Below the pieces are notes generated by a model. It was not told the origin of the DNA, did not search any database, and was given only the letters and a program-made list of their open reading frames with translations. The position numbers and the translations under genes are program-made. A stretch of 64,000 nt of DNA, from NCBI RefSeq assembly GCF_026914265.1, contig NC_069138.1, positions 26,255,262 through 26,319,261 of the forward strand, read 5' to 3'. Shown here piece after piece: positions 580 to 43,049 of this stretch. The DNA comes from Mya arenaria. Lineage: Eukaryota > Mollusca > Bivalvia > Myida > Myidae. The stretch's first letter is position 1. Every line of letters starts with the position of its first letter.

Positions 580-777
580 GGGGCTTCGGTGCTGGCGGTT
601 CCGCTGGCCCTGGCGGCCCTCGCGGCTGGAGAATAGGCGGAGCCGGACGCGTTTCCGGTAGCTTCGGACCTGGCAGGCAGATTGCCTTTGGTCGACGCGG
701 AGGCTTTGGGGGAAGAGGAATTGTCGGCACCGGTTTAGGACCAAGCAATGGATTTGGATTCGGTGGATCTTTTGGAG
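580..777 (+). CDS. GRP-1 exon (homolog of exon 4)
   Basis: Acceptor CCACAG before 580; 66 codons in a phase 1-1 exon. Encodes GGFGAGG..., a GWRIGGAGRVSGSFGPG core and a PSNGFGFGGSFGG end. The homologous donor position reads GAATGG. The nearest upstream in-frame GT that keeps phase 1 is in the GGT codon after 762. Confidence 0.65.
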
Positions 778-2771: not shown

Positions 2772-2904
2772 ATTTTAGTTGCATTCTAATTAATTTGTCC
2801 GCTTTAATACTCCGTTTGTATGTATGTATGTTGTTTGTATTTTCCAAATGCCATGTTGAGAATTCTTTGTTGGGTTTGTTTGTGTTGATGTCGGCTTCTT
2901 AAGC

Positions 2905-2910
2905 ATTAAA
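2905..2910 (+). promoter_or_regulatory. GRP-1 polyadenylation signal (ATTAAA)
   Basis: ATTAAA sits where GRP-2, GRP-3 and GRP-4 have AATAAA, in a conserved 3' UTR context followed by a TG-rich stretch (TAATGTGTTTGTT). Confidence 0.6.
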
Positions 2911-4414: not shown

Positions 4415-4550
<136 letters not shown>

Positions 4551-6439: not shown

Positions 6440-8705
6440 GGAGATTTAAATTATGACTTTCAAAAAAGAGATACATTTAAACTTCTTCATAACATCTTTG
6501 ATAACCTTAGCCTGGAAAATATTATTTCTGAACCTACATGTTTTATCAAAAACGGCAGGCTCACATGTAAAGATGTCATCCTCACCAATGCAAATTATTT
6601 TATGTGTGTGAAAGTCAACTTAAATTGCGGTTTTATCTACAGTCATAACCTTATAGCAACTAATATTAGAAAACAATGTGAGCCATTTATTTAAAAGAAG
6701 GTCACTTTTAAATCTTGCATAAACTTTGACAAAAATTATCTACTTGAACATAATGTTATATCTGGAACTCAGCTAAATGATTAACACACTTGTCTTGACA
6801 TTTTATAGGAACATTGCTAAACGTTATCTTACTTTCATTTCATCCTGGTCACCAATAAAGATATTGGTAAATATAGTGATCGGTAAAATCAAAAACAGCA
6901 ACTCCCAAAATCATCAGTGCTGGCACTGATGCTTCAAATGTTCTCAACCGAAACATGGTCAATGAAATCATGAGCCAAGAATCATTTCCAAATAGTCTTA
7001 AGCTAGCACAAGTTACACCTATTTTCAAGAAACATGACCCCTTTATAAAAGAGAACTCTAAACCAGACAGTATTTTACCATCAATGTCAACCTTATATGA
7101 ACGAGCTATAAATGAGCAACTGATTAGTCATTTTGATAATAGTTTTCTTTTTTCTTTTTCCTGGCAGCTTTCATAACAATATATGGATATCAAACGACTC
7201 TGTTAAGGCTGACGGAAGACTGCGAAAACCCCTGTATAAGAACAAATATGTAGGTGCATTTCTAATGGACCTCTCAAAAGCATTCGACTGCCTGGCCCAT
7301 GATCTCATCCTAAACAAGCTTAAAGCATATGGTATCTCAGCCCCAGCATGTAAACTTATGCACAGCTATCTTACAAACAAAAATCAATGGGTCAAACTTG
7401 GTCAAATTACCAGTGCTCGGGACTCCATCTTGAAAGGTGTGCCACAAGGATCAATATTAGGGCCTCTAGTTTTCAGATATCTTTGTAAATGACTGATTCT
7501 GCTTTATCAGTGAGGCAGCCTTGTATAAATATGCAGATGACAAGACTCTTTCTGTATGTGATAAAAATATCCTTACGTTCTTAAGACCACTCTTGAAGAA
7601 GAAAGTAACATTTTGATAAACTGGTTTACTTCCAATCAGTTGCAGGCTAACCCTGAAAAATTTCACCCTTTTACTTACAAAAATCTTCTTCATAGAATTC
7701 AGTTGCCAACATTATTTTGAATAGGGTAAGATGTATCGCTATTGAAACTTATAAATATCTTTACGGTATATCACCAGGATATGTTCAAACCCGTGTAGCT
7801 TTTAAGACATGTAATTGTCCTCTCATTTATGAAAACTGTGTAGATGTGCCATCATTAAGAACAACTAAATATGGGAAGAACTTTTCCGCCTTGATGTCAG
7901 TCAGAGCCTCGCAAAAGAAATAAGGTGCTATCAAATTTACATTGAATCTAGAAGGCTGATCTGCACCTGACCAGGTCCCTCTTGGAAATTTTCAATCAGC
8001 AAATAATACTTTATAACTTAAAACATAAAAAGAAATTGATATTTATAAGGTGGTCACTGAATATCTGTTATCCCTTGTCTTCACGAAAAACGTGTTTTCA
8101 GTGGGATTGCCTATACCTGGACAAAAGTTGGCATTCATAGACCAGAAAAAATCGAACATGAATAAAAATTATCGAATTAAATAACAAGGGCAAATATATA
8201 TTCATGACTCTTTCAAATGTATAGATCATTAGAATCTGCCAAACACATACATATACTTGTGTGTTGTTTCGTCAAGTATTTGTATTACTATTTGGCATTT
8301 TCAATTAATATTCTTAAAAAGTGGTAGGTGCGGATATTGTCAAGAAGGTGGCCGGGCAGAAGTATGGATGGTTACCTGTAGGTAGGATTGACCAAATATT
8401 AGGAGCAACCATGACTTTGCACGCTACTGTTTCTGATAATATAACTGAACAATCTAGTAGTGTTTAAATTACATGATAAATTAAGTACCTCCTCTTAGCA
8501 ATAGTTTTTACTAGCAAGCTGAATTAATCATAACATTTTTACCAACTACACATCACTGTACCATGCTGTAATTTCTATGTACATAATGCTTCGTACGAAA
8601 GTTTTATTATGTTATGTATTGTTTTTATTCATGACGGAAAATAGCTCACTGAGCTAATATACCTTGTTAGTGTATACCCGACATATAATAAAGATTCTTA
8701 TATCT
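6440..8705 (+). mobile_element. Decayed non-LTR retrotransposon (CR1/Jockey-like), copy 1
   Basis: Fragments of one coding strand in shifting frames. The end of an endonuclease lies near 6510-6610 (LENIISEPTCF, DVILTNANYF). Reverse transcriptase pieces follow at 6955-7490: QESFPNSLKLAQVTPIFKK, FLMDLSKAFDCLAHDL, GVPQGSILGPLVF. A YADD-like block lies near 7530, then a thumb-region remnant at 7717-7920. The 3' end is probably near 8690 (AATAAAGATTCTTAT). Multiple frameshifts and stops show it is dead. A homolog sits at 20290-22525. Confidence 0.75.
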
Positions 8706-9944
8706 TGTATAACACTTCTATCAGCAATTTCTTCTTTTCTAATTTTGAATAGGTATCTTTAATATTATTATCGTTTTCTTTACTTTTCACAGACATACGA
8801 GTATTTATTAAAATTCAACTTGAATAGATTTTCACATAAGTATTGATTCATGCAAAAAAAGATCAGAAGAAGTAGAAGAATTATGAGAAAAACAACAGCA
8901 AAAATAGTGAAGCTCACGAAGCTCACTATAATTGGAAATCTATACGAACATATAAATCCTTAATGAGTCAGATAAAAACGGATATTAATACATGTCTTCC
9001 ATAACTAGTAATTGTTAAAGCTAGGGATTTAGGCTTAGGTTTTTATAATACCGAATACTTGCAATTACATCGCTGCAACAAAATTATTTAAATGGGATGT
9101 TTCTATCAGCTTTAGGGGTCACCTTTGACCGCAGTATAGGGTTATTACTACTTTTATGTTCGACATTGAAATATTGTATAATCAATTAACATGTAAAAAA
9201 TAAATATTGTATCATCCAATGCAAACAGCAATAAATGCAAATATATGCTTTTTATATTGTTCCATGTAATATGTATACATTAACGTGCATGATTTCGTTT
9301 TGCAGATGTGTTTTCAAAATAACGTTTCAAGTTTTAAAGTACTAAGCTTAATGACGACTTCATCTTGAGATAGTTAAACTTTGATTTGCAAGGGAAAAAA
9401 CAATGTAAATATCAAAGTTATATCGTATTTATTTTAATGACAGTCCATAGCAAAAACATATTCACCAATGGCGCCACCGCAGACAATGTTTAACACATGT
9501 ATGTGTAATGATATTTGTTTTAACCGATGGGTCTCCTCGTGCAAACATTCCCACGAACATGCACAAGTAAAATTGTCATTTGAATTTAAAGAAACTGTAA
9601 ATATCATTTTAACAGCATGGTGCAATTCTAGTCTCATAGTTCCGAAGTGAATACAACAAATAAGTCATCGATGGCTTTTTATGGAACACAATTGATTATG
9701 AAATGCTTCATGTTGATCAAATCAGAATGCGGTCGCAGTCAAAGGTACATACAACGACCAGCTGAATGTCATACCATTCAAAATATTTTTCTGAAACAAT
9801 GTGATGACGTTAGACATGATTCATTAGGTTTGATGATTTATTTGTACAAAGCTCTAGTTAACATAAATCTGCAGCAAAAGGCGTTGTTTTGTTGTGTGAA
9901 AATAACATTCACACAACTTCACCTCGCCCCCCTCCCCCCCCCCC
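8706..9944. other. Intergenic DNA without recognisable genes
   Basis: AT-rich. 9420-9640 is paralogous to 22860-23100. Open frames in it are short and differ between the two copies. Confidence 0.45.
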
Positions 9945-11020
9945 CGAAAACAAAATCCCGACTTACCTACCCTATAATGCCTCCAACCCCATTTCCCGTC
10001 TTACCTACCCCATAATCCCTCCCCACCTCACTATCCAGACTTACCTACCCATTATATCTCCCACCCAATAATCGCGACTTACCTTCCCCAATATTTCTCC
10101 CAACCCATTATCCCTCCCGACCCAATTTTCCCAACTTCCCTACACCCGTTATCCCGACTTAACTATACTATTATCCCTCCCAACCCACTATTAAAACTAA
10201 ACTCCCCATTATCTTTCCCACCCAATTATCCAAACTTTGGTACTCCATTATCCCTCCCACCCAATCATCCCGACTTACTTACCCCATTATGCCTCCCACC
10301 CCATTGCCCCGATTTACCTACCCCATTATCCCTCCAACCAAATTATCCCGACTTACCAACCCTAGTCCCCGTCCCACTCAATTATTCCGACTTACCTATC
10401 CCATTATCCCTCCCACCCCATTATCTCTCCCTACCCACTATCCCAACTTATCTACCCTATAATCCGTCCCATCCCATTTTTCCGACTAACCTTACCCATC
10501 ATCCCTTTCATCCCATTATCCCGACTAACCTACCCCATTATTCCTCCCGACCCCATTACCCCGACTTACCTACCCCATTGTCCTTCCCACCCCATCATCC
10601 CGACTTACCAACCCCATTATCCTTCCCACCCCATTTTCCCGCCTTTCCTACCCAATTATCCCTCCCGACCCCATTATCTCGACTTACCTATCCCATTATC
10701 CCTCCCACCTTATTATCTCGACTTACCTATCCCATTATCCCTCCAACCTCATTATCTCGATTTACCTGCCCAATAATCCCTCCCACACCATTATCCCGAC
10801 TCACATACCCCAAAATCCGTCACATCCCTTTATCCTGACTGACCTACCCCATATTCCCTCCCAAACTATTATCCCGACTTACATCTTCCATTATCCATCC
10901 CCATCCCATTATCCCAATTTAACTACCCTATAAACCCGATTCCATTATCCCAACTTAACTATCCTTTAATCTCTCCCACCCTACTATCCCGACTTACCTT
11001 CTCAATTATTATACGGCAGT
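9945..11020. repeat. 39-bp C/T-rich minisatellite, copy 1
   Basis: About 27 degenerate units of a pyrimidine-rich 39-bp motif with core phrases CCCATTATCCCTCCCA and CCCGACTTACCTACC. It ends about 400 bp upstream of the GRP-2 TATA box. A shorter array occupies the same place before GRP-3. The 13-residue repeat in one frame (RLTYPIIPPTPLS) simply mirrors the 39-bp period. Confidence 0.85.
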
Positions 11021-11194: not shown

Positions 11195-11454
11195 ATGCAT
11201 GTTCCTTTCCGTTCGGCAGTGGTTATGTTTCATCAAGTGATGCACTTCGTAACAATAACATGCACATGTAAAAGCAACGGTTTAATTGACGCGAGAGAAT
11301 CATACGAACGGCTCATTGTCTTTTATCACCGTGTTTACATATTTACATACAAGGTAATAATTTCTGCATTATTCATCCATGTAATGATATGTTAGATGAT
11401 CAAATAGGTTCCGGGCCTTTTTGATATAAAAGTCGCGCAATCTTGTTAGCGATT
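11195..11454 (+). promoter_or_regulatory. GRP-2 promoter, conserved paralogous block
   Basis: About 260 bp nearly identical to 23653-23911 before GRP-3. The proximal half is also conserved before the more divergent GRP-4 (34274-34400). The phrase CATTGTCTTTTATCACCGTG starts at 11314, 111 bp before the TATA box. The same phrase is 110 bp upstream in GRP-3 and GRP-4. Confidence 0.65.
11425..11431 (+). promoter_or_regulatory. GRP-2 TATA box
   Basis: TATAAAA, about 30 bp before the conserved start of exon 1 (GCATTCGACGTC). Conserved at 23882-23888 and, as TATATAA, at 34384-34390. Confidence 0.7.
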
Positions 11455-11685: not shown

Positions 11686-11743
11686 ATGCAGATACTCTTA
11701 ATCACTAGTCTGCTAGTCGGCACTACTCTGGCCGTCGGCAAAG
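11686..11743 (+). CDS. GRP-2 exon 2, signal peptide
   Basis: Acceptor TTTCAG ends at 11672; the ATG follows 13 nt later. It codes 19 residues plus one base; donor GTCCGT. The hydrophobic core ILLITSLLVG and an LA-V cleavage site are typical of a secretory signal. Confidence 0.85.
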
Positions 11744-14700
11744 GTCCGTTTTATTTGGTTGAACAGATTTATGTACAATACAGTTAACAATGAATAAATA
11801 ACTAAGTTTGTTTTTATCTTAAATATGAAATAAATATATTTTACAAAAAAGTCAATATATCTTATCAACTCAATATTCTAAAACTCGTGAAATATATACC
11901 TGTATAGACGTATTATTACTAGACGGTTTTGTTACATTACAATTAATGAATTTTTCATCTGCTTTTGCTCAGGTAGGTATGGCGGAGGTTTTGGTGGTGC
12001 AAGTGCGGACGCCTCAGGAGGAATTGGTGGTGCAATAACCGGTGGCGGTGCTCTTGGAGGTGGCGGTGGGGGATCCGGAAGTGGCCATGTAATGGTTGTT
12101 GCTGGTGGCGGCGGTGGATCTGGCTATCCTTACGGTATTACTCTCATACAAATCATTTAAGTAAGATCGCTATTGTTAACATATATTGAATATGCGTCCA
12201 AAAGACCTCGATTCCACCAGAAAGCGTTATCAACGTTATTGGCAATAAAATTAAATTTGGGTATTTTGGCGTTTGTTAAAGAAAAAGGAAAACTAATACA
12301 TTTATATTAATAAAATTCGTGAACTATTCTTTATTGCTATATTAACAAAAGAAAACTCAGAAACCTTTGTAGAAAAATCCGGTACTTTGCATACCATTTA
12401 AAGAGAACTTTTTCAATACCGCTCATATATCTGACAGCTGTAAAGTACTTTTAATATTGCTTAACATAATCAATAAGCAATTAAGAGCAGAACAGTTATA
12501 ATTTTGAAATAATTTATTTGTTCGTTGTACCTCTCCAGATATGGTATGAATGAATAATATCTTAACAGACTGATTTTATACATGGTTTTCAAAGTATCCA
12601 GTAATATGAGACTTACAAAATAATATTTAAAGCTGATTCATTTTCGTATATAAAAGGTTTTTTTATGCTCAAACAAACATTGCATAAAATAGGCAAAAGT
12701 AATCTATGGATTTTCATGTTACTCTTTTTTAAGCTTGTTAAGTTTCTTTGACATACAAGATAACCAATGGTGGAAACAATGTCATTTTCCCTCTCAAATT
12801 GTTGTTACAAATGAACATGTTTCATGTATTACCACAGGGGTTTTTGGTGCTGGCGGTCCCGGTGGCTCTGGCGGCCATGGTGGCCCTAGCGGCTGGAGAA
12901 TAGCTGGCGCCGGAAGCGTATCCTCTGGCTTCGGACCTGGCGGGCAGAGCTCTTTGGGAAGAGGGATTGACGGCACCGGTTCAGGACCAAGCAATGGATT
13001 TAGATTCGGTGGATCTTTTGGAGGAATGTATAAGTCTTTTCACGAAGAAGGAAAAAATATTAAACTGTTCGCAGTTTGTCAAGTAGATGTTAAGTATTTT
13101 AGATGTTCACAATATGCGATCATATTTCTGACAGCTTTGGATGAATAAACAATCAGATGGCGTAGTTTGGATAAATTAATTGCAATCACAACTAGTTTAA
13201 ATAAATTCCAGGCGGTGCATTTGGACCCACTGCTGGTGGACCGACATTCGGTCCCGTATCTGGAGGCCCTAGTTACGGTGGCCCTACTTCCGAAGGTGCT
13301 GTTACTGGTCCCAGTGGCTCGTTCCCGGGCGGCCTCGTTTTTGGTGGCCCCAACGGTGCTAGACCAAGCACTGGATTTGGCGTTAGTGGATCTTTCGGAG
13401 GTATGGAAAAGTATTTAACGGAGATAACATATTCAGAAACTTTTAAAATGAAGTTTTACAATGTGTGATAAGTGACCTTCGTCAGCTGAAAATGACACAA
13501 AACAGCATTCTCAGTAAGAATGAATAAATTGTAACTTAAATTACTTAACTTAAAATTTCCAGGCGGGGCATTTTTAAGTGGTGTTCCCACTGTTGGTGGA
13601 CAGACATTCAGCCCAGTGTCTGGAGGCCCTGTGTCCGGTGGCCCAATTTCCGGAGGGGCTCTATCTGGCCCCTTTGGCTCGTTCCCGGGCGGCCCTGTTT
13701 CTGGTGGCCCCACCGCTGCTGGACCAAGCAATGGATTTAGATTTGGTGGATCTTTCAGAGGCATGGATGAGTTTTTAACAAAGATAAACAAATATTGAAA
13801 CTTTCAAATTACAGTTTTTCAAAATTTGTTTTACTATTGAAGAGGTTCAAAATGTGTGATCAGACTTACTTCTATCAGCTAAAAAAGTACGCTAAACAGC
13901 ATTGCACAGTTCGAATTCATGAATTTAAATCTTTAAATGAAAATTTTAATATTTATAGGCGGCGCATCTGTAAGCGGTGGACCAACTGCTGGTGGACCGA
14001 CATTTGGTCCAGTGTCCGCAGGACCTATTTCCGGAAGTGCTGTATCTGGCCCCAATGGCCCCTTCTCGGGTGGTCCTGTCTCTGGTGGTCCTGTAGCTAG
14101 TCCGAGTGGCTTCTTCACAGGCAGAACTAGTGGTACCGTCGTTATGACAAGCGGACAAAGCGGCCCGGCTCCTGGTCTCCCCGTTTCCGGGTCTGGACTT
14201 CCAGTTTTCGGAGGATCTGGTGCCGGCGTTGTAAGTGGCGATTTTGGTGGTGCAATCGGAGGCAGTTTTGGAGGAAACGTCGGTGGTTCCTCCGTTAGAA
14301 AAAGTGAGTTATTGCCCTTGATATATTTGAAGTATAATTGTATAGTTAACCGAAATGCTTTGCTCTATTGCTGATATTGAAAGATGTCAAATGTTTAATC
14401 AAACTATTTTATATTAAATTTCCGCATGGTTTATCAATCTATAGGCGTATAAACACAAAGGTGCAAAAAGATGGATTAAAATTAAAATTATATTTTCTGC
14501 AACAATCAGGAGATGCTAGCCTGTATGTTTTAGTATAAATAAATAACGAACATTTAAGCCCCCTTATAACGCTTAAGTTGACTCTTCAAAAATGAGGCAT
14601 TTTTTTAAAATTAATACGAACATTGTGATATATTTTCAGCCTACTAGTCGTGAGGATTTACGTGAATCGTTCTTTAAACATTCCCGACGATGATTTGCCA

Positions 14701-14772
14701 ATGTCTTTTGCATTCTGTCCCGACGTCAACTGGACCGGGTTTACCGACGAGATATATAATATTTTTTCCTGA
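11686..14772 (+). CDS. GRP-2: secreted glycine-rich repeat protein
   Basis: Join of 11686-11743, 11973-12134, 12838-13023, 13212-13400, 13563-13760, 13959-14303 and 14648-14772; 1263 nt, 420 residues. All introns are phase 1. The start is the only ATG of exon 2 and opens a signal peptide (MQILLITSLLVGTTLA, probable cleavage before VGKG). Then come a poly-Gly exon with a VMVVAGGGG insert, three GGPVS/PSNGF repeat exons, a long exon with GRTSGTVVMTSGQSGP and LPVFGGSGAGVVSG, and an acidic C-terminal exon. There is no cysteine between the signal peptide and the last exon. Odd points: donor GA after 13023, donor GC after 13760, and two alternative last acceptors. A structural extracellular-matrix role is inferred from composition and secretion signal; no catalytic domain is visible. 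Confidence 0.78.
11973..12134 (+). CDS. GRP-2 exon 3, Gly-rich
   Basis: Acceptor GCTCAG, donor GTATTA; 54 codons, phase 1-1. Encodes a GRYGGGFGGAS start, GGGALGGGGGGSGSG and a VMVVAGGGGGSGYPY end. Nearly identical to 24429-24590. Confidence 0.85.
12838..13023 (+). CDS. GRP-2 exon 4
   Basis: Acceptor CCACAG, 62 codons, phase 1-1. VFGAGGPGGSGGHGGPSGW start, PSNGFRFGGSFGG end. The donor position reads GAATGT. A GT four bases downstream would break the frame of exon 5. Confidence 0.65.
13212..13400 (+). CDS. GRP-2 exon 5, repeat exon
   Basis: Acceptor TTCCAG, donor GTATGG, 63 codons, phase 1-1. It lacks the VSG tripeptide seen after the opening GGAF in the other copies (an in-frame difference). 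Confidence 0.75.
13563..13760 (+). CDS. GRP-2 exon 6, repeat exon
   Basis: Acceptor TTCCAG, 66 codons, phase 1-1. The donor is GCATGG, a GC-AG intron shared with GRP-3. Confidence 0.72.
13959..14303 (+). CDS. GRP-2 exon 7, long penultimate exon
   Basis: Acceptor TTATAG, strong donor GTGAGT, 115 codons, phase 1-1. Five codons (15 bp) shorter than in GRP-1 and GRP-3 within the GPVSGGP block. Confidence 0.8.
14648..14772 (+). CDS. GRP-2 C-terminal exon (distal acceptor)
   Basis: The proximal AG ends at 14639 and gives Thr-Tyr-stop. The distal AG ends at 14647, keeps the phase and encodes RSLNIPDDDLPMSFAFC, then PDVNWTGFTDEIYNIFS and TGA at 14770-14772. Conservation of the frame across paralogs supports the distal choice. 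Confidence 0.6.
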
Positions 14773-23171: not shown

Positions 23172-23550
23172 ATGTCCCGACTTATATACCCTATAATCCC
23201 TCCCACCCCATTATCCCGGCTTACCTACCCGACTTTCTCTCCAACCCAAGTATCCCGATTTCCCTACCCCATTATCTCTCCCACCCCATTATCCCGAATT
23301 ACCTACCTTATAATCCCTCCCACCCCATTATCCCGACTTACCTACCCTATGATCCCTCATACCACATCATTCCAACTTACCTACCCCATTATCTCTCCCA
23401 CCCCATTATCCCGACTTCCCTACCCTATAATCCCTCCCACCCCATTATCCCGACTTACCTACCCTATAATCCCTCATACCACATCATTCCAACTTACCTA
23501 CCCCATTATCTCTCCACACCCCAGTATCCCGAATATCCTACCCAATTATT
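23172..23550. repeat. 39-bp C/T-rich minisatellite, copy 2
   Basis: About ten units of the same motif as 9945-11020, but more homogeneous. Two neighbouring units carry the same CATACCACATCATTCCAA variant, showing recent duplication within the array. Confidence 0.85.
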
Positions 23551-24146: not shown

Positions 24147-24204
24147 ATGCAGATACTCTTAATCACTAGTCTGCTAGTCGGCACTACTCTGGCCGTCGGC
24201 AAAG
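24147..24204 (+). CDS. GRP-3 exon 2, signal peptide
   Basis: Same 58-nt coding part as GRP-2 exon 2; acceptor TTTCAG ends at 24133, donor GTCCGT. Confidence 0.85.
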
Positions 24205-27200
24205 GTCCGTTTTATTTCGTTGAACAGATTTATGTACAATACAGTTAACAATGTATAAATAATTAAGTTTGTTTCTATCTTAAATATAAAACAAATATGT
24301 TTTGCAATAAAGTCAATATATCTATTCAACTTAATATTCTCGTGAAATGTATACCTATATAGACGTATTATTGCTATACGGTTTTCGTAACATTACAATT
24401 AAGGAAATTTTCATCTGCTTTTGCTCAGGTAGTTATGGTGGAGGTTTTGGTGGTGTAAGTGGCGGCGCCTCAGGAGGAATTGGTGGTTCAATAACCGGTG
24501 GCGGTGCTCTTGGAGGTGGCGGTGGGGGATCCGGAAGTGGCAATGTAATGGTTGTTGCTGGTGGCGGCGGTGGTTCTGGATATCCTTACGGTATTACTCT
24601 CAAACAAATCATTCCAGTAAGATCTCCATTTTTAACATATATTGAATATGCGACTATAAGAGCTCGATTTTACCAGAAAGCTTTATCAGCGCTCTTGGCT
24701 ATTAAATTATTTTTGGATATTTTGGTGTTTGTTCAAGAAAAAGGAAAACTAATACGTTTATTTTAATAAAATTCGTGAACTATTTCTTTATTGCTAAATT
24801 AACATAAGAAAACTCGGAAACCTTTGTTTAAAAAAAATCTGGCACTTTGCAAACCAATCATAGAGAAAGCTGTTAACTCCATTTAATATTGCCTAACAAT
24901 AAATAAGCAATTAAGAGCAGAACAGTTATAATTTTAAAAACAATTTAGTACTTCGTTGTACCCCTCTAGATGTGGTATGAATGAAGAATTTTTAACAGAG
25001 TGATTTTATACATGGTTTTCAATGTATGCAGTAATATGAGACTTACAAAATAATATTTAAAGCTGATTCATTTTCCTCAAAAACGTATATAAAAGGGTAT
25101 TTTTATGCTCAAATAAACATAAAAATAGGCAAAAGTAATCCAAGGATTTTCATGTTGCTCTTTTTTAATCTTTTTGCCTTGACATACAAGATAACCAATG
25201 GTGGAAACATTATGTTATTCGCTCTCAAATTGTTGATACAAATGATGTTTCATGCTTTACCACAGGGGGTATTGGTGCTGGCGGTCCCGGTGGCTCTGGT
25301 GGCCCTTGGGGCCCTAGCGGCTGGAGAATAGGCGGCGCCGGAAGCGTATCCGGTAGCTTCGGACCTGGCGATCAGAGCTCTTTTGGAAGAGGGATTGACG
25401 GCACCGGTTCAGGACCAAGCAATGGATTTGGATTCGGTGGATCTTTCGGAGGAATGTATAAGTCTTTTCACGAAGAAGGAAAAAATATTAAACTTTTCGC
25501 AGTTTGTCAAGTAGGTGTTTAGTATTTTAGATGTTCCCAAGATGCGTTCATATTTCGACAGCTTTGGATGAATAAACAAACAGCATTGCGTAGTTTGGAT
25601 AAATCAATTGCAATCACAAATAGTTTAAATAAATTCCAGGCAGTGCATTTGTAAGCGGTGGACCCAATGCTGGTGGACCGACATTCGGTCCCGTGTCCGG
25701 AGGTCCTAGTTACGGTGGTCCTACTTCCGGAGGTGCTGTTACTGGTCCCAGTGGCTCGTTCCCGGGCGGCCTCGTTTTTGGTGGCCCCACCGGTGCTAGA
25801 CCAAGCACTGGATTTGGCGTTAGTGAATCTTTCGGAGGTATGGAAAAGTATTTAACGAAGATATTATATTCAGAAACTTTTAAAATGCAGTTTGTCAAAA
25901 TTTTGTTTAACTATTGAAAAGGTTTACCATGTGTGATAAGTGACCTTCATCAGCTGAAAATGACGCAAAACAGCAATCTCAGTAACAATGAATAAATTGT
26001 AATTTAAATTATTTAACTTAAAATTTCCAGGCGGGGCATTTTTAAGTGGTGTTCCCACGTTTGGTGGACAGACATTCGGTCCAGTGTCTGGAGGCCTTCT
26101 TTCCGGTGGCCCAATTTCCGGAAGTGCTGCATCTGGCCCCTTTGGCTCGTTCCCGGGCGGCCTTGTTTCTGTTGGCCCCACCGGTGCTAGACCAAGCAAT
26201 GGATTTAGATTTGGTGGATCTTTCAGAGGCATGAATGAGTCTTTAACAAAGATAAACAAATATTGAAACTTTCAAATTACAGTTTTTTAAAATTTGTTTT
26301 ACTATTGAAAAGTTCAGACTTACTTCTATCAGCTTAATACGTACGCTAAATAACATTGCACAGTTCGAATTCATGAATTTAAATCTTTAAATAAGTATTT
26401 TACTATTTTTTTAGGCGGCGCATTTGTAAGCGGTGGACCAACTGCTGGTGGACCGACATTTGGTCCAGTGTCCGCAGGACCTGTCTCCGGTGGCCCCATG
26501 TCCGGAGGTGCTGTATCTGGCCCCAGTGGTCCCTTCTCGGGTGGTCCTGTCTCTGGTGGTCCTGTAGCTAGTCCGAGTGGCTTCTTCACAGGCAGAACTA
26601 GTGGTACCGTCGTTATGACAAGTGGACAAAGAGGCCCTGCTCCTGGTCTCCCCATTTCCGGGTCTCGACTTCCAGTGTTCGGAGGATCTGGTGCCGGCGT
26701 TGTAAGTGGCGACTTCGGGGGTGCAATCGGAGGCAGTTTGGGAGGAAATGTCGGTGGTTCATCCGTTAGAAAAAGTGAGTTATTGCCGTTGATCTATTTG
26801 AAGTATAATTGTATAGTTAGGCTTTAGGTATCAGCAAACCGAAATGTTTTACTCGATTGCTGATATTGAACGATGTCTAATGTTTAATCTAACGATTATA
26901 TATTAAATTCTCGCATGGTTTATCAGTCTATAGGCATATAAACACAAAGGTGCAAAATATGGTTTCAAATTAAAATTAAATTTTCTGCAACAATCAGGAG
27001 ATATATATATATCGCTTAAGTTGACTCTCCAAAAATGAAACAATTCTTTAAATGAGCATTCATATTTTTGGGGAAGCAACGTGTTTTACAAACAATGACA
27101 ATGATCAAATAACTTATATTAATTCACTAGCGAAAGTGTTGAAAGTGTTGTCATTTATTATGTTGCCTTAAAAGTTTCGAATAAGCATCTATGACGCAAT

Positions 27201-27349
27201 GTTTTTGGACATTTAAATGAATACGAACATTGTGGTACATTTTCAGCCTACTAGCCGACGATGATTTGCCAGTGTCTTTTGCATTCAGTACCGACGTCAA
27301 CTGGACCGGTTTTACCGACGAGATATATTATATTTTATTTAAATTATAA
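24147..27349 (+). CDS. GRP-3: secreted glycine-rich repeat protein
   Basis: Join of 24147-24204, 24429-24590, 25266-25451, 25640-25837, 26031-26228, 26415-26774 and 27255-27349; 1257 nt, 418 residues, all introns phase 1. The signal peptide is identical to that of GRP-2. The domain order is the same: Gly-rich exon with VMVVAGGGG, three GGPVS/PSNGF exons, long LPVFGGSGAGVVSG exon, acidic tail. GRP-2 and GRP-3 are near-identical in promoter and exons 1-3, less so in repeat exons and introns, consistent with segmental duplication plus local conversion. Same odd donors as GRP-2: GA after 25451, GC after 26228. The last exon lost 36 bp (12 codons) in frame and the one cysteine of the tail. Structural matrix role inferred, not proven. 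Confidence 0.78.
24429..24590 (+). CDS. GRP-3 exon 3, Gly-rich
   Basis: 54 codons, phase 1-1, acceptor GCTCAG, donor GTATTA. GSYGGGFGGVSGGASGG start; GNVMVVAGGGGGSGYPY end. Confidence 0.85.
25266..25451 (+). CDS. GRP-3 exon 4
   Basis: 62 codons, phase 1-1, acceptor CCACAG. GIGAGGPGGSGGPWGPSGW start. The donor position reads GAATGT as in GRP-2. Confidence 0.65.
25640..25837 (+). CDS. GRP-3 exon 5, repeat exon
   Basis: 66 codons, phase 1-1, acceptor TTCCAG, donor GTATGG. Confidence 0.75.
26031..26228 (+). CDS. GRP-3 exon 6, repeat exon
   Basis: 66 codons, phase 1-1, acceptor TTCCAG. The donor is GCATGA (GC-AG intron), weaker than the GCATGG of GRP-2. Confidence 0.7.
26415..26774 (+). CDS. 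GRP-3 exon 7, long penultimate exon
   Basis: 120 codons, phase 1-1, acceptor TTTTAG, strong donor GTGAGT. Confidence 0.8.
27255..27349 (+). CDS. GRP-3 C-terminal exon (distal acceptor)
   Basis: Distal AG ends at 27254. Encodes TDDDLPVSFAFSTDVNWTG, FTDEIYYILFKL and TAA at 27347-27349. Relative to GRP-1 and GRP-2, 36 bp are missing directly after the acceptor without disturbing the frame. Confidence 0.6.
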
Positions 27350-34430: not shown

Positions 34431-34646
34431 GTAAGTCATTTGCTGGGAATTTTTTTTTGCTAAGTTAAGATTGAAAAAGGGTGAACAAAGTATTTGCGTG
34501 CAAAATAACTAAGACAATAAGAATTAAAGGAATTCTTTTTTTTCTTTTACAATAGGGGACAGTCACATGTGTAGATAAATTAGATGGAATTAAGCTAAAT
34601 TGATAATTATAAAGCAACATTGAAATATTTCAGACAATCTACAAGG

Positions 34647-34704
34647 ATGCAGATACTCTTAATCGCTAGTCTGCTGGTCGGTACTTCTCTGGCCATTGGC
34701 AAAG
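34647..34704 (+). CDS. GRP-4 exon 2, signal peptide
   Basis: Acceptor TTTCAG ends at 34633; same length and phase as in GRP-2/3 with T-to-A, T-to-S and V-to-I changes. Donor GTGCGT. Confidence 0.85.
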
Positions 34705-37700
34705 GTGCGTTATGTATTAGCTGTACAGATAGAAATATGTATAAATTTGTGAACATTGAATAACTAGCTATGTTTGTTATTTCCCAAATATATAACTAAC
34801 ATGGGTTTCAAAAAAAGTCAATATAATAAATCATCTTCTGATTTAATACTTCTTGTGCAGTTAAAACAGAAACATGAAAATAGAGCTATAATTTCGACTT
34901 GTTTTGATAACAGTACCATTTATGATTAATATGATACCTTACATAAATGTGTATCTTCTTTGTGTATATAAAGTTGATCGGACCATATAATTATCATTGT
35001 ATTTTAATAAAAATCCAGTTTGAATGGTCCGTAACTCGGCAAAAATTTAATATGGGCTGCTGACGTTATATTATAAGGACCGCTGGCATCATAAAACTTA
35101 GTTCTGCTTGCAATTATCACAACGACATTTTTTTCGCAAGTAAACATTATTGGCTTTGTTCAATAAAACACGTTAAAGGCGCTTTAAAATTGTTCAATGG
35201 TATAATAAGTATTCGGCATAATATAAGAAATATAACACACCAGTTCGGGCCATATGGCATTATAAGGACCGGCCTTCGGGTGCTGACTCGCCGGTCCTTA
35301 TAATGTCAAATGACCCTCAGTGGCGTGTACTATTTCTTAATTCCATTTGCTATTGCCCAGGTGGTTACGGCGGAGGTTTTGGTGGTGCAGGTGGTGGCAC
35401 CATTTCCGGCGGCACTTTAGGAGGCGGCGGTGGTTCATTTACCGGTAGCGGTGCTTTTGGAGGTGGCGGCGGCGGATCAGGAAGTGGTCATGTTATGGTT
35501 GTTGCTGGCGGCAGCGGTGGTTCTGGATATCCGGTCGAAGGTACTCTCATAGAAATCATTTGACAGTGTGTCTTTTGCTTTTGATATACTGTATAACAGT
35601 AAAGTAATAACTTCTAATTATAACAAGACAATCTTCGTTTGTTATATTTATGCACGACGATTCTCATATTGGAATATCCCAAAGACAGCAAGGGTTTTTA
35701 TGGTTCGTGTAGACGTGCTGGACAAGGCTTTTACAATGGTTAAAGTGTTTCGATTAAGTGCACTAACAATCGTTTACGCGGTGTGGTACAGTGCTCGGTC
35801 AATTTATAGTATTGCAAGACATTGTTCTTTTTATGTTTTTTTATATTGCAATATGCTGTTCTTTCAGTAAGCAAGGAACTTGCAAGGTACTGACTTGTTA
35901 ATTTAATTATCGGCGAAACACTGTCTATGTATACTAGGAACAATTTCTATAACTTTTTTAGTTGTGAGAAGGAGATTGGTTTTTATAACAACAGTCGTGA
36001 TTTAAATTTTTATCGTTTTTTTTTTATTAAATAACAATATCCTTCAGCTTCAAATATTAACGCGACATATTCACGTGTTATAGGGTTAAAAACTAAAACA
36101 GTTTTACGTGAGAAATGTGGACAAAACATCCTCATGACAATGATTTAACAGCATCGTAAGATCAAATAAGATATCTACTGCGACCAAAAATGATCAAACT
36201 CGGCAAAAAGCGTTATTAACGCTATTGACAATTAAATTACATTAGGGTATTCGGTTTTTTTTTAATTGAATTAAAATGTGGTATTTTTAACAAAGTTTGA
36301 TAACATTTATTGCCAGTATATAATTTGTGAACAACTCCGTAATTGCTTCTTAAAGATAATGAACTAAAAAATCTTGCAGAAAAGTCATGTCCTTTGAAAA
36401 TGGTTCATCGAGATATTTCCCAATTCTACATGCATTTTGTTCAGCTGTAATGCACGTTTATAACTCCCTTCCATACTACATAAGCAATTCAAAGCAGAGC
36501 AGTTATGATTTTAGATTAATTCTGGTCTGCGTTGAAACTCGGTAGCTGTGGTATGGATAAACGACACTTGCATAAAATGATTTTATATCTGGTTTCCGAA
36601 GTATTTGCTGATATGAGACTCTCTTTTTTCAACTTGATGCACTTTCGCCAAAAGATAGAACATAAAATGGTCATGTCTTGCTGAAACAAACATTGCATAA
36701 AATGAGTCCAAGAAATCCTAGATTTTAATATAATTATTTTTTACTCATCACATACAATATATCCAATGGTGGAAACGGTATATATAATTCTCCACCCCAA
36801 TCTCTTAATGCAAATTAAAGTGTTTCATGTCATACATTAACCATAGGGGCCTTTGGTGATGGCGGTCCTGGTGGCAATGCCGGCCCTAACGGCTGGAGAG
36901 TAGGAGCATCCGGCAGCGTAACCGGTAGCTGGGGAACTGGCGGACAGAGCTCTTGGGGTGGATTCGGGGGAAGTGAAGGACCGTTCCCCGGGGATGGCAT
37001 GCCCGGAACTGGAGGTAGCAGTGTCACAGGCGGAAGTGGTGGTGTTGGCCCAACAGATGGTGTAGGTGAAGGATGGGGCGGACGAATTAGTGGTAGCTGG
37101 GGATCAACATTGGGGGGAACCGGATCAACAGGAGGGAGGAACGGAGGAGGATCCATCGGCACCGATGCTAGACCAAGCAATGGATTTGTATTCGGTAGAG
37201 CTTTCGAAGGAATGAATAAGTATTTTTAACAAAGAGTACAAAATATTATAACTTAAACAGTACGTCAATATTTGAGTTCATAATTTTAGAGGTTCACAAT
37301 GTGCGATCATACTTCGCACAGCTAAAACGGATGCTAATCAACAACAGTGCAGAGTAAGGATTAACTAATTGAGATCTTAAATATTTTACATTAACATTTA
37401 AGCCAGGGCATTCGTTAGCGGTCGATCAACTGCTGGTGGACCGACATTCGGTCCAATGTCCGGAGGCCCTCGTTCCGGTGGCCCCATTTCCGGAGCATCT
37501 GTATCTGGTCCCAGCGGCTCCTTCCCGAGCGGCCCTGGTGGTCCAACCAGTGCTGGACCTAGCATTGGATTTGGATTCGGTGGATCTTTTGGAGGTATGG
37601 ATAAGTCTTTAAAAAAGTACATAATATTTCAATTTAAAAAGTATATCAATATTTGGGTTCAGTATTTTAAAGATTCACAATGTGCGATCATACTTCAGAC

Positions 37701-40700
37701 AGTTCAAACAGATGCTAAAAACAGCATTGCATAATAACGATGTTTATTTCAGATCTTTAATAGTACATATTAAACTTCAGGCGGGGCATTCATAAGCAGT
37801 GGACCTACTGCTGGTGAACCGACATTCGGTCCAGTGTCCGGAGGCCCTCGTTACGGTAGCGGAGGATCTGTATCTGGTCCCAGCGGCTCCTTCCCGAGCG
37901 GCCCTATTGCTGGTGGCCCCACCGGTGCTGGACCTAGCAATGGATTTGGATTCGGTGGATCTTTTGGAGGAATGGATAAGTTATTTATCATAGACGGAAT
38001 TTTTTTCTTTTTAAAAATACAATTTGTCAATATTTTTTTGGTTCTAAATGTGATGCAAAAACAACAATATTGCATATCGAGGATAATTCAATTACAATCT
38101 TGAATATTTCACATTAAACTTCCAGGCGGTGCATTTGTAAGCAGTGGACCAACTGCTGGTGGAACGACATTTGGTCCAAGGTCCGGAGGCCCTATTTCCA
38201 GTGGCCCTGTTTCAGGAGGTCCTTTATCTGGTCCCAGTGGTTCCTTCCCGGGCGGCCCAGTTTCTGGTGGCCCCACCGGTGCTGGACCAAGCAATGGATT
38301 TGAATTTAGTGGATCTATCGGAGGTTTGGATAAGTACATAACAAAAATAAACGTAATATTAAAATACATTTTGTTAAAATTTTGGCTTACTATTGAAAAG
38401 GTTCGCAAATTGCAATTATAGTTTGGGCAATTCAAATGCATGCAAAAAAAACATAGCATAGTGACGATGTTTTTAAAAAAAAAAGTTTTATTCAATTTAC
38501 AGGCGGGGCATTTTTAAGCGGTGGACCCACTGCTCGGGGATCTACATTCGGTCCAGCGTCCAGAAGCCCTGCTTCCGGTCGTCCCATGTCCGGAGGCTCT
38601 GTAACTGGTCCCAGTGGCTCCTTCCCGGGTGGTCCTGTCTCTGGTGGTCCCATTTCTGGAGGTCCTGAAGCTGAGCCCAATGGCTTCTACCCAGGCGGCA
38701 CAATTTCAGGTGGAGCCAGCGGTACCCTCGTCATGTCAAGCGGACCTAGCGGGCTAAGGTCCGGAGGCCCTGTTTCCAGTGGACCTGTTTCCAATGGACC
38801 TGTTTCCGGAGGTCCTTTATCTGGTCCCAGTGGTTCCTTCCCGGGCGGTCCAGTTTCTGGTGGCCCCACCGGTACTGGACCAAGCAATGGATTCGATTTT
38901 AGTGGATCTATCGGGGGTATGGATAAATACCTAAATAAGATAAAAAAAAATATTGAAACTTATTAAAATACAGTTTGTCAAAATTTTTGTTTACTAAGGT
39001 TCGCTAAGTGCGATCATACGTCAATTAAAATGGATGCAAATAACAGCATGGCATAATAAGGATGAATTTAAAAAAAAATGAATATATTTTTCATTGAATT
39101 TACAGGCGGGGTATCATTAAGCGGTGGACCCACTGCTCGGGGACCTACATTCGGTCCAGTGTCCGGAAGACCTGTTTCCGGTGGTCCCATATCCGGAGGC
39201 CCGGTGTCTGGTCCCAGTGGCTCCTTACCGGGTGGCCCTGTCTCTGGTGGTCCCTCTTCCAGAGGTTCTGTAGCTGGGCCCAGTGGCTTTTACCCAGGCG
39301 GCACATTTTCAGGTGGAGCCAGCGGTACCCTCGTCATGACAAGCGGACCTAGTGGGCCAAGGTCCGGAGGCCCTGTTTCCAATGGACCTGTTTCTGGAGG
39401 TCCTTTATCTGGTCCCAGTGGTTCCTTCCCGGGCGGCCCAGTTTCTGGTGGCCCAACCGGTACTGGACCAAGCAATGGATTTGAATTTAGTGGATCTATC
39501 GGGGGTATGGATAAATACCTAAATAAGATATAAAAAAATATTGAAACTTATTAAAATACAGTTTGTCAAAGTTTTTGTTTACTAAGGATCGCTAAGTGCG
39601 ATCATACGTCAATTAAAATGGATGCAAATAACAGCATGGCATAATATGGATGAATTTAAAAAAATGTCTTAATATTATTCATTTAATTTACAGGCGGGGT
39701 ATCTTTAAGCGGTGGACCCACTGCTCGGGGACCTACATTCGGTCCAGTGTCCGGAAGACCTGTTTCCGGTGGTCCCATATCCGGAGGCCCGGTGTCTGGT
39801 CCCAGTGGCTCCTTCCCGGGTGGCCCTGTCTCTGGTGGTCCCTCTTCCAGAGGCTCTGTAGCTGGGCCCAGTGGCTTCTACCCAGGCGGCACATTTTCAG
39901 GTAGAGCCAGCGGTACCCTCGTCATGACAAGCGGACCTAGCGGGTCAAGGTCCGGAGGCCCTGTTTCCAGTGGACCTGTTTCCGGAGGTCCTTTATCTGG
40001 TCCCAGTGGTTCCTTCCCGGGCGGCCCAGTTTCTGGTGGCCCCACCGGTACTGGACCAAGCAATGGATTTGATTTTAGTGGATCTATCGGGGGTATGGAT
40101 AAGTACCTAAATAAGATAAAAAAAAATATTGAAACTTATTGAAATACAGATTGTCAAAACAATTGTTTACTAAGGTTCGCTAAGTGCGATCATACGTCAA
40201 TTAAAATGGATGCAATAACAGCATGGCATAATTAGGATGAATTTAAAAAAAAATGTTTTAATATTATTCATTTAATTTACAGGCGGGGTATCTTTAAGCG
40301 GTGGACCCACTGCTCGGGGACCTACATTCGGTCCAGTGTCCGGAAGACCTGTTTCCGGTGGTCCCATATCCGGAGGCCCTGTGTCTGGTCCCAGTGGCTC
40401 CTTCCCGGGTGGCCCTGTCTCTGGTGGTCCCTCTTCCAGAGGCTCTGTAGCTGGGCCCAGTGGCTTCTACCCAGGCGGCACATTTTCAGGTAGAGCCAGC
40501 GGTTCCCTTGTCATGACAAGCGGACCTAGCGGGTCAAGGTCCGGAGGCCCGGTTTCCAATGGACCTGTTTCCGGAGGTCCTTTATCTGGTCCCAGTGATT
40601 CCTTCCCGGGCGGCCCAGTTTCTGGTGGCCCCACCGGTACTGGACCAAGCAATGGATTTGATTTTAGTGGATCTATCGGGGGTATGGATAAGTACCTAAA

Positions 40701-43049
40701 TAAGATAAAAAAAATAATATTGAAACTTATTGAAATACAGATTGTCAAAACAATTGTTTACTAAGGTTCGCTAAGTGCGATCAAACGTCAATTAAAATGG
40801 ATGCAAATAACAGCATGGCATAATAAGGATGAATTTAAAAAAAAAAAAAAATTATTTAATTTACAGGCGGTCCATTTTTAAGCGGTGGACCCACTGCTCG
40901 GGGACCTACATTCGGTCCAGTGTCCGGAAGACCTGTTTCCGTAGGTCCCATATCCGGAGGCCCTTTGTCTGGTCCCAATGGCTCCTTCCCGGATGGCCCT
41001 GTCTCTGGTGGTCCCTCTTCCAGAGGCTCTGTAGCTGGGCCCAGTGGCTTCTACCCAGGCGGCACATTTTCAGGTAGACCCAGCGGTACCCTTGTCATGA
41101 CAAGCGGACCTAGCGGGCCAAGATCCGGAGGCCCTGTTTCCAATGGACCTGTTTCCGGAGGTCCTTTATCTGGTCCCAGTGGTTCCTTCCCGGGCGGCCC
41201 AGTTTCTGGTGGCCCCACCGGTACTGGACCAAGCAATGGATTTGAATTTAGTGGATCTATCGGGGGTATGGATAAGTACCTAACAAAGATATAAAAAAAT
41301 GAAACTTATTAAAATAAGCCTGTCAAAATTTTGTTTACTAAGCTTCGCTAAGTGTGATCATACTTTGGTTAATTGAAATGAATGCAAATAACAGCATGGC
41401 ATAATAAGGATGAATTTAAAAAAAGGTTTTAATATTATTCATTTAATTTACCGGCGGGGCATTTTTAAGCGGTGGACCCACTGCTCGGGGACCTTCATTT
41501 GGTCCAGTGTCCGGAAGCCCTGTTTCCGGTGGTCCCATATCCGGAGGCCCGGTGTCTGGTCCCAGTGGCTCCTTACCGGGTGGCCCTGTCTCTGGTGGTC
41601 CCTCTTCCAGAGGTTCTGTAGCTGGGCCCAGTGGCTTCTACCCAGGCGGCACATTTTCAGGTAGAGCCAGCGGTACCCTCGTCATGACAAGCGGACCTAG
41701 CGGGCCAAGATCCGGAGGCCCTGGTTCCAATGGACCTGTTTCCGGAGGTCCTTTATCTGGTCCCAGTGCTTCCTTCCCGGGCGGCCCAGTTTCTGGTGGC
41801 CCCACCGGTACTGGACCAAGCAATGGATTTGAATTAAGTGGATCTATCGGGGGTATGGATAAGTACCTAACAAAGATATAAAAAAATGAAACTTATTAAA
41901 ATAAGCCTGTCAAAAATTTTGTTTACTAAGCTTCGCTAAGTGCGCTCATACCTTGGTTAATTGAAATGAATGCAAATAACAGCATGGCATAATAAGGATG
42001 AATTTAAAAAAAGGTTTTAATATTATTCATTTAATTTACCGGCGGGGCATTTTTAAGCGGTGGACCCACTGCTCGGGGACCTTCATTCGGTCCAGTGTCC
42101 GGAAGACCTGTTTCCGGTGGTCCCATATCCGGAGGCCCGGTGTCTGGTCCCAGTGGCTCCTTACCGGGTGGCCCTGTCTCTGGTGGACCCTCTTCCAGAG
42201 GTTCTGTAGCTGGGCCCAGTGGCTTCTACCCAGGCGGCACATTTTCAGGTGGAGCCAGCGGTACCCTCGTCTTGACAAGCGGATCTAGCGGGCCTAGCAG
42301 CCCGGTTCAAGGCGGTCCCGTTTACAATGGCCCAGGAGGATCCATGCCTGACCTTCCGGTGTTCGGTGGAGCTGGTCCAGGTGTTGTGGATGGTGGCTTT
42401 GGAGGCACATTTGGAGGCGATTTCGGTGGAAACGTCGGAGGCGTCTCCATTGACAGAAGTCAGTTATTACTCATGATCGGTATTTAGAAAAAAAATACAA
42501 TGGTAAAAATAATTAATTTCAGTTTCTATGAACTGTGGGTTTTTAAAAGGTAACAAAATAGTAACCAAAGTTGTAAGTTTTCAAATTTCAACCTGAGTGT
42601 ATCAAAAATGGTTTCATTTCTGCAAATCTTACGATACTAGCATACACTATTTGTACATGTGTGGTGTTGCAAATTTAATTATGATACATTCATATATTCA
42701 AATTAATATCAAATGGCATATTATATTATAGGCATTTTCGATAAGTTTAATCAAAATGAATACGGACTTGGTTATTTATTTCCAGCCTACTAGTTTCTTC
42801 CACTAAGCAACAGAACACGGTAGCATCATGGGACGTTGTCAAAATATCCCGACGATGAGTTGCCCGTGTATTTTCCTTTCTTTACCAACGTCGACGGGAT
42901 CAGTATTACCGACGAGATGTATTGTATTTGAGTTGTATTTTAAGTTATTACTTTGCTTATATACACCCTTGTATTGTTGTGTTGTAATTCCCAAATCCCA
43001 TGCTGATAATGCGTTGAGACATGTTCTGTTGTTATGTTACGGGCTTTAA
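34647..43049 (+). CDS. GRP-4: giant secreted glycine-rich repeat protein
   Basis: Exons: 34647-34704, 35361-35540, 36847-37209, 37403-37594, 37781-37969, 38126-38323, 38503-38916, 39106-39504, 39694-40092, 40283-40681, 40867-41265, 41454-41852, 42042-42458, then a last exon near 42814-43049. The first 13 sum to 4006 nt, about 1335 residues, all in phase 1. Signal peptide MQILLIASLLVGTSLA; Gly-rich exon; a long Trp-containing exon 4; then repeat exons dominated by the pentapeptide GGPVS and its variants. The seven last repeat exons are tandem copies with introns. Problems: GA donors after 37209 and 37969, CG instead of AG before the nominal exons at 41454 and 42042, and a frame slip in the last exon. 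It is therefore uncertain which exons are used and how the protein ends. Structural matrix role inferred from composition. Confidence 0.68.
35258..35305. repeat. Perfect 15-bp inverted repeat in GRP-4 intron 2
   Basis: CATTATAAGGACCGG (35258-35272) and its exact inverse (35291-35305) around an 18-nt loop, 55 nt before the exon 3 acceptor. A third partial copy (ATTATAAGGACCG) is near 35072. Intron 2 is 656 bp here against 229 bp in GRP-2, so this is probably part of an inserted foldback element. Confidence 0.75.
35361..35540 (+). CDS. GRP-4 exon 3, Gly-rich
   Basis: Acceptor GCCCAG, donor GTACTC, 60 codons, phase 1-1. GYGGGFGGAGGGTISGG start; HVMVVAGGSGGSGYPVE end, matching exon 3 of GRP-2/3. 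Confidence 0.82.
36847..37209 (+). CDS. GRP-4 exon 4, long Gly/Trp form
   Basis: Acceptor CCATAG, 121 codons, phase 1-1, almost double the GRP-2 exon. Five Trp in GW or SW contexts, a PFPGDGMPGTGGSS block, and the shared PSNGF end. The donor position reads GAATGA. A GTAGAG after 37194 would also keep phase 1. Confidence 0.65.
37403..37594 (+). CDS. GRP-4 exon 5, repeat exon
   Basis: Acceptor TTTAAG (the later CCAG would break the phase), donor GTATGG, 64 codons, phase 1-1. Confidence 0.65.
37781..37969 (+). CDS. GRP-4 exon 6, repeat exon
   Basis: Acceptor CTTCAG, 63 codons, phase 1-1. The donor position reads GAATGG. Confidence 0.62.
38126..38323 (+). CDS. GRP-4 exon 7, repeat exon
   Basis: Acceptor TTCCAG, donor GTTTGG, 66 codons, phase 1-1. 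First exon with the FEFSGSIGG end found in the amplified exons. Confidence 0.7.
38503..38916 (+). CDS. GRP-4 exon 8, repeat exon
   Basis: 138 codons, phase 1-1, acceptor TTACAG, donor GTATGG. Five codons longer than the next units, partly through an extra VS(S/N)GP pentapeptide. Confidence 0.75.
39106..39504 (+). CDS. GRP-4 exon 9, repeat exon
   Basis: 133 codons, phase 1-1, acceptor TTACAG, donor GTATGG. GVSLSGGPTARGPTFGPVSG start, SGGASGTLVMTSG middle, FEFSGSIGG end. Confidence 0.75.
39694..40092 (+). CDS. GRP-4 exon 10, repeat exon
   Basis: 133 codons, acceptor TTACAG, donor GTATGG; nearly identical to exons 9 and 11. Confidence 0.75.
40283..40681 (+). CDS. GRP-4 exon 11, repeat exon
   Basis: 133 codons, acceptor TTACAG, donor GTATGG. 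Carries a Ser-to-Asp change in the GPSDSFPGG block. Confidence 0.75.
40867..41265 (+). CDS. GRP-4 exon 12, repeat exon
   Basis: 133 codons, acceptor TTACAG, donor GTATGG; starts GPFLSGG instead of GVSLSGG. Confidence 0.75.
41454..41852 (+). CDS. GRP-4 exon 13, repeat exon with damaged acceptor
   Basis: 133 codons if read from the nominal start, but the acceptor reads TTACCG instead of TTACAG. An in-phase AG (GGTCCAG, exon from 41508) would rescue the exon minus 18 codons; skipping it also keeps the frame. Donor GTATGG. Confidence 0.55.
42042..42458 (+). CDS. GRP-4 exon 14, penultimate exon with damaged acceptor
   Basis: 139 codons nominally; repeat-exon start joined to the LPVFGGAGPGVVDGGFGG tail; donor GTCAGT. 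The acceptor reads TTACCG as before exon 13. The in-phase AG would start the exon at 42096. Confidence 0.55.
42814..43049 (+). CDS. GRP-4 last exon, frame-slipped
   Basis: AGs end at 42785, 42793, 42801, 42813 and 42823. The one at 42813 gives the same 20-nt distance to the conserved CGTT as in GRP-2. After it one base is missing relative to GRP-2 (near 42838-42848), so the conserved acidic frame (PDDELPVYFPF ... TDEMYCI, 42849-42927) is read out of frame. The used frame runs to TAA at 43047-43049. Upstream acceptors stop at 42791-42793 or 42856-42858. It may be a true change or a sequence error. Confidence 0.4.

Follow-up and report, generated by a model that had tools for sequence, protein, structure and literature searches.

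Which kind of protein is encoded by the repetitive exons that follow one another in this stretch of the genome of the clam Mya arenaria, and how are these exons joined when many of them lack the usual GT donor? The window, that is the whole stretch of 64,000 nucleotides (G000:C17:26255262-26319261, plus strand), was analysed together with its flanks, 254 kb in all, and negative coordinates denote positions upstream of it. The sequence contains eight open gene models which fall into two sub-families (A and B), are built of phase-1 cassette exons, have evolved in frame, and have a common putative signal sequence and common ends. The best explanation, which we regard as probable though by no means settled, is that they form a tandem family of secreted, probably disordered, silk-like matrix proteins rich in glycine, serine and proline in the extracellular organic material of the clam, and that the splice donor of family A has shifted upstream.

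An earlier note on this DNA had placed four such genes here. This is correct for family A, except that only three genes (A2-A4) are complete inside the window; A1 is represented by its 3' part, its signal-peptide exon (-881) and Gly-rich exon (-619) being located outside. The cluster as such is confirmed and exceeds that description, with eight genes in two sub-families. Searched with exon queries, the window and its flanks show the signal-peptide exons of family A at -881, 11686, 24147 and 34647, those of family B (four sister genes upstream of the window) at -51583, -34749, -23964 and -14316, and, near -9,019, a remnant that is B-like. A decayed family copy occupies 52750-55018 on the minus strand, where the ATG reads GTG and the frame is broken. 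Kin on other chromosomes were sought by two whole-genome searches. The pattern GGPVSGGP gave 19 forward matches and one reverse match, none of them outside this cluster. With the reversed control pattern the counts were 0 and 1, so that the lone reverse match is by pattern alone not above control, and it is supported by tblastn. A search at the protein level, for which the Gly-rich exon of A4 served as query, returned four matches, namely the four A genes, and as it missed the B genes, distant kin elsewhere may escape it.

All eight gene models are open, without a stop when joined in phase 1, and encode 373-1,337 amino acids (A1 373, A2 381, A3 389, A4 1,337; B1 415, B2 405, B3 520, B4 463). 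Each begins with a putative signal sequence, followed by a Gly-rich exon, and terminates in -[KR][TR]Y. The 47 introns modelled are all phase 1 (A 31/31, B 16/16), as the earlier note had claimed; the junctions are predicted, and 39 donors are GT, six GA and two GC, the eight non-GT donors all belonging to the 31 introns of family A, while 45 acceptors are AG and two are CG. The accompanying claim that any exon can be removed without a change of frame is valid for the reading frame; that many internal exons are without a GT donor had been overlooked.

The exons of family A within the window, all on the plus strand, are arranged as follows, with mid exons (m) between exon 3 and the C-terminal exon and a bar marking the donor. 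In A1, exon 3 (580-777; GAG|GAATGG), m1 (957-1073; GAG|GTATGG) and m2 (1267-1464; GAG|GAATGG) precede the C-terminal exon (1660-2019; AAA|GTGAGT) and the coding part of the last exon (2651-2658, TY stop). A2 comprises a signal-peptide exon (11686-11743), Gly-rich exon (11973-12134), exon 3 (12838-13023; GAG|GAATGT), m1 (13212-13400; GAG|GTATGG), m2 (13563-13760; GAG|GCATGG), C-terminal exon (13959-14303) and last coding part (14640-14647), and A3 the same set at 24147-24204, 24429-24590, 25266-25451 (GAG|GAATGT), 25640-25837 (GAG|GTATGG), 26031-26228 (GAG|GCATGA), 26415-26774 and 27247-27254. In A4, the signal-peptide exon (34647-34704), Gly-rich exon (35361-35540) and exon 3 (36847-37209; AAG|GAATGA) are followed by nine mid exons: m1 (37403-37594; GAG|GTATGG), m2 (37781-37969; GAG|GAATGG), m3 (38126-38323; GAG|GTTTGG), m4, with which the long exons of the tandem array begin (38503-38916; GGG|GTATGG), m5 (39106-39504), m6 (39694-40092), m7 (40283-40681), m8 (40867-41265) and m9 (41454-41852). 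The C-terminal exon (42042-42458) and the last coding part (42786-42793) complete the gene. The two CG acceptors stand before m9 and before the C-terminal exon of A4, both reading TTACCG, where the AG has been lost.

The gene ends are likewise shared. A TATA-like box 261-270 bases 5' of the ATG in A1-A4 (at 11425-11431 in A2) is followed by a GGTAAGT-type donor, which suggests a 5' untranslated region (UTR) exon. In all eight genes the last exon contributes TY (A) or RY (B) before the stop, and the 3' regions beyond it are similar and contain poly(A)-like signals (ATTAAA near 2905 in A1, AATAAA near 43052 in A4). A stretch after the stop that would read DDDLPVSF...TDEIY is similar in A and B (2651-2760, 14640-14760, 27247-27340 and 42786-42930 in A1-A4). 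It was rejected as a coding frame and treated as 3' UTR, because B3 and A4 interrupt its frame and all eight genes have the short Y-stop end in common. A loss of the exon 3 acceptor in B1 and B2 is apparent only, as a new phase-1 TAG|GC acceptor is found nearby.

The encoded chains are of low complexity. Once the signal sequence is removed they contain 33-44% Gly, 10-19% Ser, 9-14% Pro, 0.5-1.8% Met, no Cys and 1-2 Lys. When lags 1-19 are compared, each of the four A proteins has its strongest signal at lag 5 (z 3.9, 5.2, 4.7 and 16.6; 200 shuffles each), in agreement with the GGPVS/GGPIS period of five described earlier; the period is absent in family B (z -0.7 to 0.7 at lag 5), where lag 8 or 13 is strongest. 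The longest Gly-X-Y run across the eight proteins is 6-9 repeats, short of the long runs of collagen, which had also been set aside in the earlier note. No Pfam match was obtained for four family segments and two full proteins, consistent with the view that no named family is involved. In the PDB a first search gave one chance-level match (E 0.97) and a second none at 0.01. Five repeat strings of the family had no match in a full-text literature search, and a search by titles and abstract starts named no matching family. A MQILLITSLLVGTTLA-type start is found in 8/8 genes; judged by eye, this looks like a hydrophobic N-terminal signal sequence, and no hydrophobic stretch was seen by eye outside it. 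The SilkSlider criteria are a signal peptide, no transmembrane segment and at least 25% Gly in 80 amino acids (PMC4944945), a glycine content that the mature chains exceed over their whole length. From this composition and these criteria we infer secretion and a structural role. The earlier reading of the proteins as secreted, repetitive and likely extracellular structural is supported by the signal sequence, the glycine content, the low complexity, the lack of a Pfam relative and the SilkSlider composition. Elastin-type lysine cross-linking is unlikely because of the 1-2 Lys per mature chain, and the traits of abductin are not found.

Such proteins would be secreted by a mantle-type epithelium into the periostracum, the siphon covering or the shell framework, as a first guess, with the hinge ligament or juvenile byssus as alternative destinations; the periostracum or siphon covering is a guess from composition. 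The Gly-Gly-Pro segments of the chains would be flexible and rich in turns, with non-covalent contacts or the few tyrosines holding them.

The models are supported by the way in which the genes have diverged. Six gene pairs were aligned, indels shared by related pairs being counted more than once, and 27/29 exon indels are multiples of three compared to 58/232 in non-coding sequence (Fisher p 6e-13). The remaining two, of 46 and 5 bases (sum 51), both occur in B3-B4 and could stem from a single artefact of the alignment. Among the three pairs formed by A1-A3, 12/12 exon indels keep the frame, shared events again being counted in more than one pair. Ratios of non-synonymous to synonymous divergence (dN/dS) were obtained with internal exons extended to include the ATG codon; pooled over five exon types, the signal-peptide exon left out, they are 0.38 for A1-A2, 0.50 for A1-A3 and 0.64 for A2-A3. 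By exon, and in the same order of pairs, they are 0.48, 0.96 and 0.60 for the Gly-rich exon, 0.40 (p 0.022), 0.34 (p 0.011) and 1.08 (p 1.0) for exon 3, 0, 0.35 and 0.47 for m1, 0.44, 0.66 and 1.30 for m2, and 0.35, 0.42 and 0.31 for the C-terminal exon. Corresponding values for the Gly-rich exon, exon 3 and the C-terminal exon are 0.16, 1.27 and 0.47 in B1-B2 and 0.22, 0.30 and 0.37 in B3-B4, and six comparisons within the A4 tandem array range from 0.33 to 1.21. As GA follows exon 3 in all four A copies, it most simply predates their split, yet an excess of silent changes is seen in exon 3 of A1-A2 and A1-A3. This indicates, with moderate confidence, that exon 3 is used despite its GA donor.

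The mid exons in turn point to how the proteins have grown. A query with the C-terminal exon matches the start of 15/15 mid exons and one with exon 3 matches the end of 5/15 (E 1e-3), the remaining mid-exon ends being alike in a hand alignment. A mid exon thus combines the 5' part of the C-terminal exon with the 3' end of exon 3 and can arise by unequal exchange between both exons. Six of the nine mid exons of A4 are long, and compared to a long-exon query five are 95.6-97.0% identical and m4 82%. Protein length would grow by such exchanges, each copying the intron between exon 3 and the C-terminal exon, and probably every intron between exon 3, mid and C-terminal exons is a copy of one ancestral intron.

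The donor of this intron differs between the two sub-families. After exon 3 of family B it reads GCG|GTAAGT, GCA|GTAAGT or GCA|GTGAGT (4/4). At the same place in the 19 internal A exons (four exon 3 and 15 mid exons) the G|GTAAGT kept in B is lost in 19/19; A stands at +1 in all of them, followed by a variable +2 and then RAGT (17) or AAAT (2). Six bases upstream of this old donor is found AG|GNATG, with N = T (11), A (6) or C (2), which is most likely the replacement donor and the best supported of three phase-1 alternatives. These were scored by their flanks against 28 reference donors (12 of Prp8 and 16 unique cluster donors), positions +1 and +2 being ignored. The mean percentile is 95.8 for AG|GN, 82.6 for the old site and 54.1 for a GGT/AGT codon 15 bases upstream of AG|GN. 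At AG|GN the eight non-GT sites score 97.0-99.9 and the eleven GT sites 89.4-99.3. AG precedes the donor at 8/8 non-GT compared to 5/11 GT sites (Fisher p 0.018), and the form with AG before a GA donor and A at +3 is seen at 6/6 GA sites. The acceptor AG is constrained (one change in two sites vs 3.9 per site nearby), as is RAGT (three changes in four sites vs 2.19 per intron site, p 0.025). A phase-2 model that joins donor AA|GT to acceptor TAAG|C was rejected, as the bases between the two AGs behave as coding, the third position of GGN varying and the first two hardly, and as the first AG is constrained. The family A intron would accordingly have lost G|GTAAGT and most likely moved its donor six bases upstream to AG|GNATG, where the second intron base would be free to be T, A or C. 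The RAGT left behind may still help to recruit U1, implying a six-base offset between U1 pairing and cut site. Tentatively, and with less assurance than the shift itself, we propose that recognition by U1 has become separated from the cut in this expanding family of cassette exons, with U1 on the relic RAGT, the cut at AG|GN, and GT, GA and GC interchangeable between copies.

A rival reading is that the exons followed by a GA or GC donor are dead cassettes, skipped without a change of frame since they are phase 1-1 and persisting only through their youth. Non-GT donors are rarely used in animals, and exon 3 and m2 of the recent A2-A3 pair give 1.08 and 1.30 compared to 0.31-0.60 for the other three exons. 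The 31/31 GT-AG introns of two conserved genes (12/12 junctions in Prp8 and 19/19 in RPB2) also fit this reading, which is nonetheless rather unlikely in view of the purifying selection on a GA-bearing exon 3 between A1 and A2/A3, the frame-keeping exon indels of A1-A3 and the strong flanks of the non-GT donors. That the introns start elsewhere, either with the GT inside the GGT/AGT codon or, as AN-AG introns, at the position of the old donor, is quite improbable. The GT of that codon is invariant (19/19), and the A at +1 and the RAGT of the old site are constrained, but both places have the lower flank scores given above. The stretch after the GGT/AGT site is moreover coding-like, with changes at eight third, five first and two second positions, and we know of no precedent for AN-AG introns with a free second base, which counts against the old donor. 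For the protein itself, an elastomer of the hinge ligament of the abductin type would be an alternative. Like abductin, the clam proteins derive from a bivalve, are rich in Gly and Phe (FGGSFGG motifs) and are probably random coil. Their high proline, little methionine and lack of a GGFGGMGGGX repeat make this improbable, as abductin is rich in Gly and Met and contains very little proline (PMC13052691). In Pinctada a Met-rich region is common to most of the insoluble proteins identified from shell and ligament (PMC7591529), and the low Met and high Pro of the clam chains speak against proteins of this kind as well.

A shifted donor in a disordered matrix protein remains the preferred explanation, and several observations weigh against it. 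GA donors are normally rare. The conserved genes mentioned above, in which only recognisable exons were counted, hold no non-GT donor among 31 junctions; this excludes a copepod-like 12% at p 0.019 (upper 95% bound 9.2%), and because of it the odd donors look local to the cluster. In Prp8, 11 junctions were read by script and one was re-read by hand where clam and human differ. In RPB2 a GT-AG split was accepted if within one residue of the best; at junction 7 it fits 5/6 typed residues and the other split 6/6, the GT-AG reading having the aspartate of the PDB chain. The donor score is limited by the origin of 16 of its 28 reference donors in this very cluster, and a free third base of GGN is also expected of an ordinary coding glycine. 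In A2-A3, exon 3 and m2 have a higher ratio of non-synonymous to synonymous changes than the other exons of the pair (p 0.043), which could reflect relaxed use. No such difference is seen in A1-A2 (p 0.59) or A1-A3 (p 1.0), and weak constraint also occurs in the Gly-rich exon of A1-A3 (0.96) and, with ordinary donors, in exon 3 of B1-B2 (1.27). The full 1,337-residue product of A4 is doubtful, because m9 and the C-terminal exon are without an AG acceptor. The AlphaFold mean pLDDT of 43 for one mid exon folded alone is, coming from a single sequence, weak evidence for disorder.

A U1 variant for GA donors has been speculated on (PMC7072748), and pairing of U1 in shifted as well as bulged registers is possible (PMC9311317). 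The five clam U1 genes read have an ordinary 5' end. A variant matching GA donors was searched for with one mismatch allowed: no exact ATACTTTCCTGGC match was obtained, 47 of 49 one-mismatch matches carried ATACTTACCTGGC, and neither of the other two, on C14, scores as U1 (one was read by eye). The family search scored only 42 of 13,997 first-look candidates, and a more divergent variant could escape both searches. U1 snRNA genes, many in tandem and often with a spacing of about 1.3 kb, lie at G000:C12:65361611-65483653. The domain PF00562 occurs twice with similar scores and in opposite orientation (G000:C1:35291308-35297132 and C1:44894119-44902804), which suggests that a gene for an RNA polymerase subunit has been duplicated, either in the genome or in the assembly.

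These observations add a modular clam biomaterial family in which length changes by whole exons. They also provide, within one cluster, 19 natural copies of a probably single 5' splice site whose second intron base is T, A or C, on which a separation of U1 binding from the cut site could readily be tested. Gene finders restricted to GT would probably truncate or misread such genes, a truncation reported for a copepod (PMC5714493), and similar structural families may be under-annotated.

Among the neighbouring features, a non-LTR retrotransposon on the minus strand (58765-63196) has long open frames with reverse transcriptase (PF00078) and endonuclease (PF03372); coiled-coil matches in its first frame are weak and below the cut-off. 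Between the family genes, open frames at 6849-7492 and 20626-20967 resemble reverse-transcriptase fragments by eye. A 39-base tandem repeat has similar copies upstream of A2 (9955-10999) and A3 (23175-23543) and was for this reason probably copied together with the genes. Beyond A4 two 44-base repeat arrays (44211-44695 and 49567-50611) lie about 5 kb apart in apparently opposite orientation. An Rfam search of the window gave no match at the gathering threshold.

Compared to known systems, the clam family resembles the silk-like structural proteins (the SilkSlider class, including shematrins and KRMPs) in being secreted, glycine-rich, repetitive, of low complexity and without a recognised domain. 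That class is set by composition and not by descent, and the likeness is one of composition without sequence kinship; the period-five GGPVS unit and the consistently phase-1 cassette exons set the clam family apart. In-phase cassette exons are known from elastin; no relative emerged in the Pfam and PDB searches made. Vertebrate elastin likewise has five-residue repeats with Gly and Pro and domains that tend to match single exons, and its Lys/Ala cross-link domains alternate with hydrophobic ones (PMC3291537); the former are lacking in the lysine-poor clam chains. For the donors, the AG preceding the non-GT sites matches the AG|GAA rule of GA donors in the copepod Eurytemora affinis (PMC5714493) and the tunicate Oikopleura dioica (PMC7072748), whose GA-AG introns likewise have AG at the exon end, a GA donor and A at +3. 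No paper title on mollusc GA-AG introns was among the matches listed. In Eurytemora, GA/GG donors make up 10-12% of introns in sampled genes (PMC5714493), whereas in the clam such donors are, as far as tested, confined to one gene family, and the clam U1 genes read are ordinary at their 5' end.

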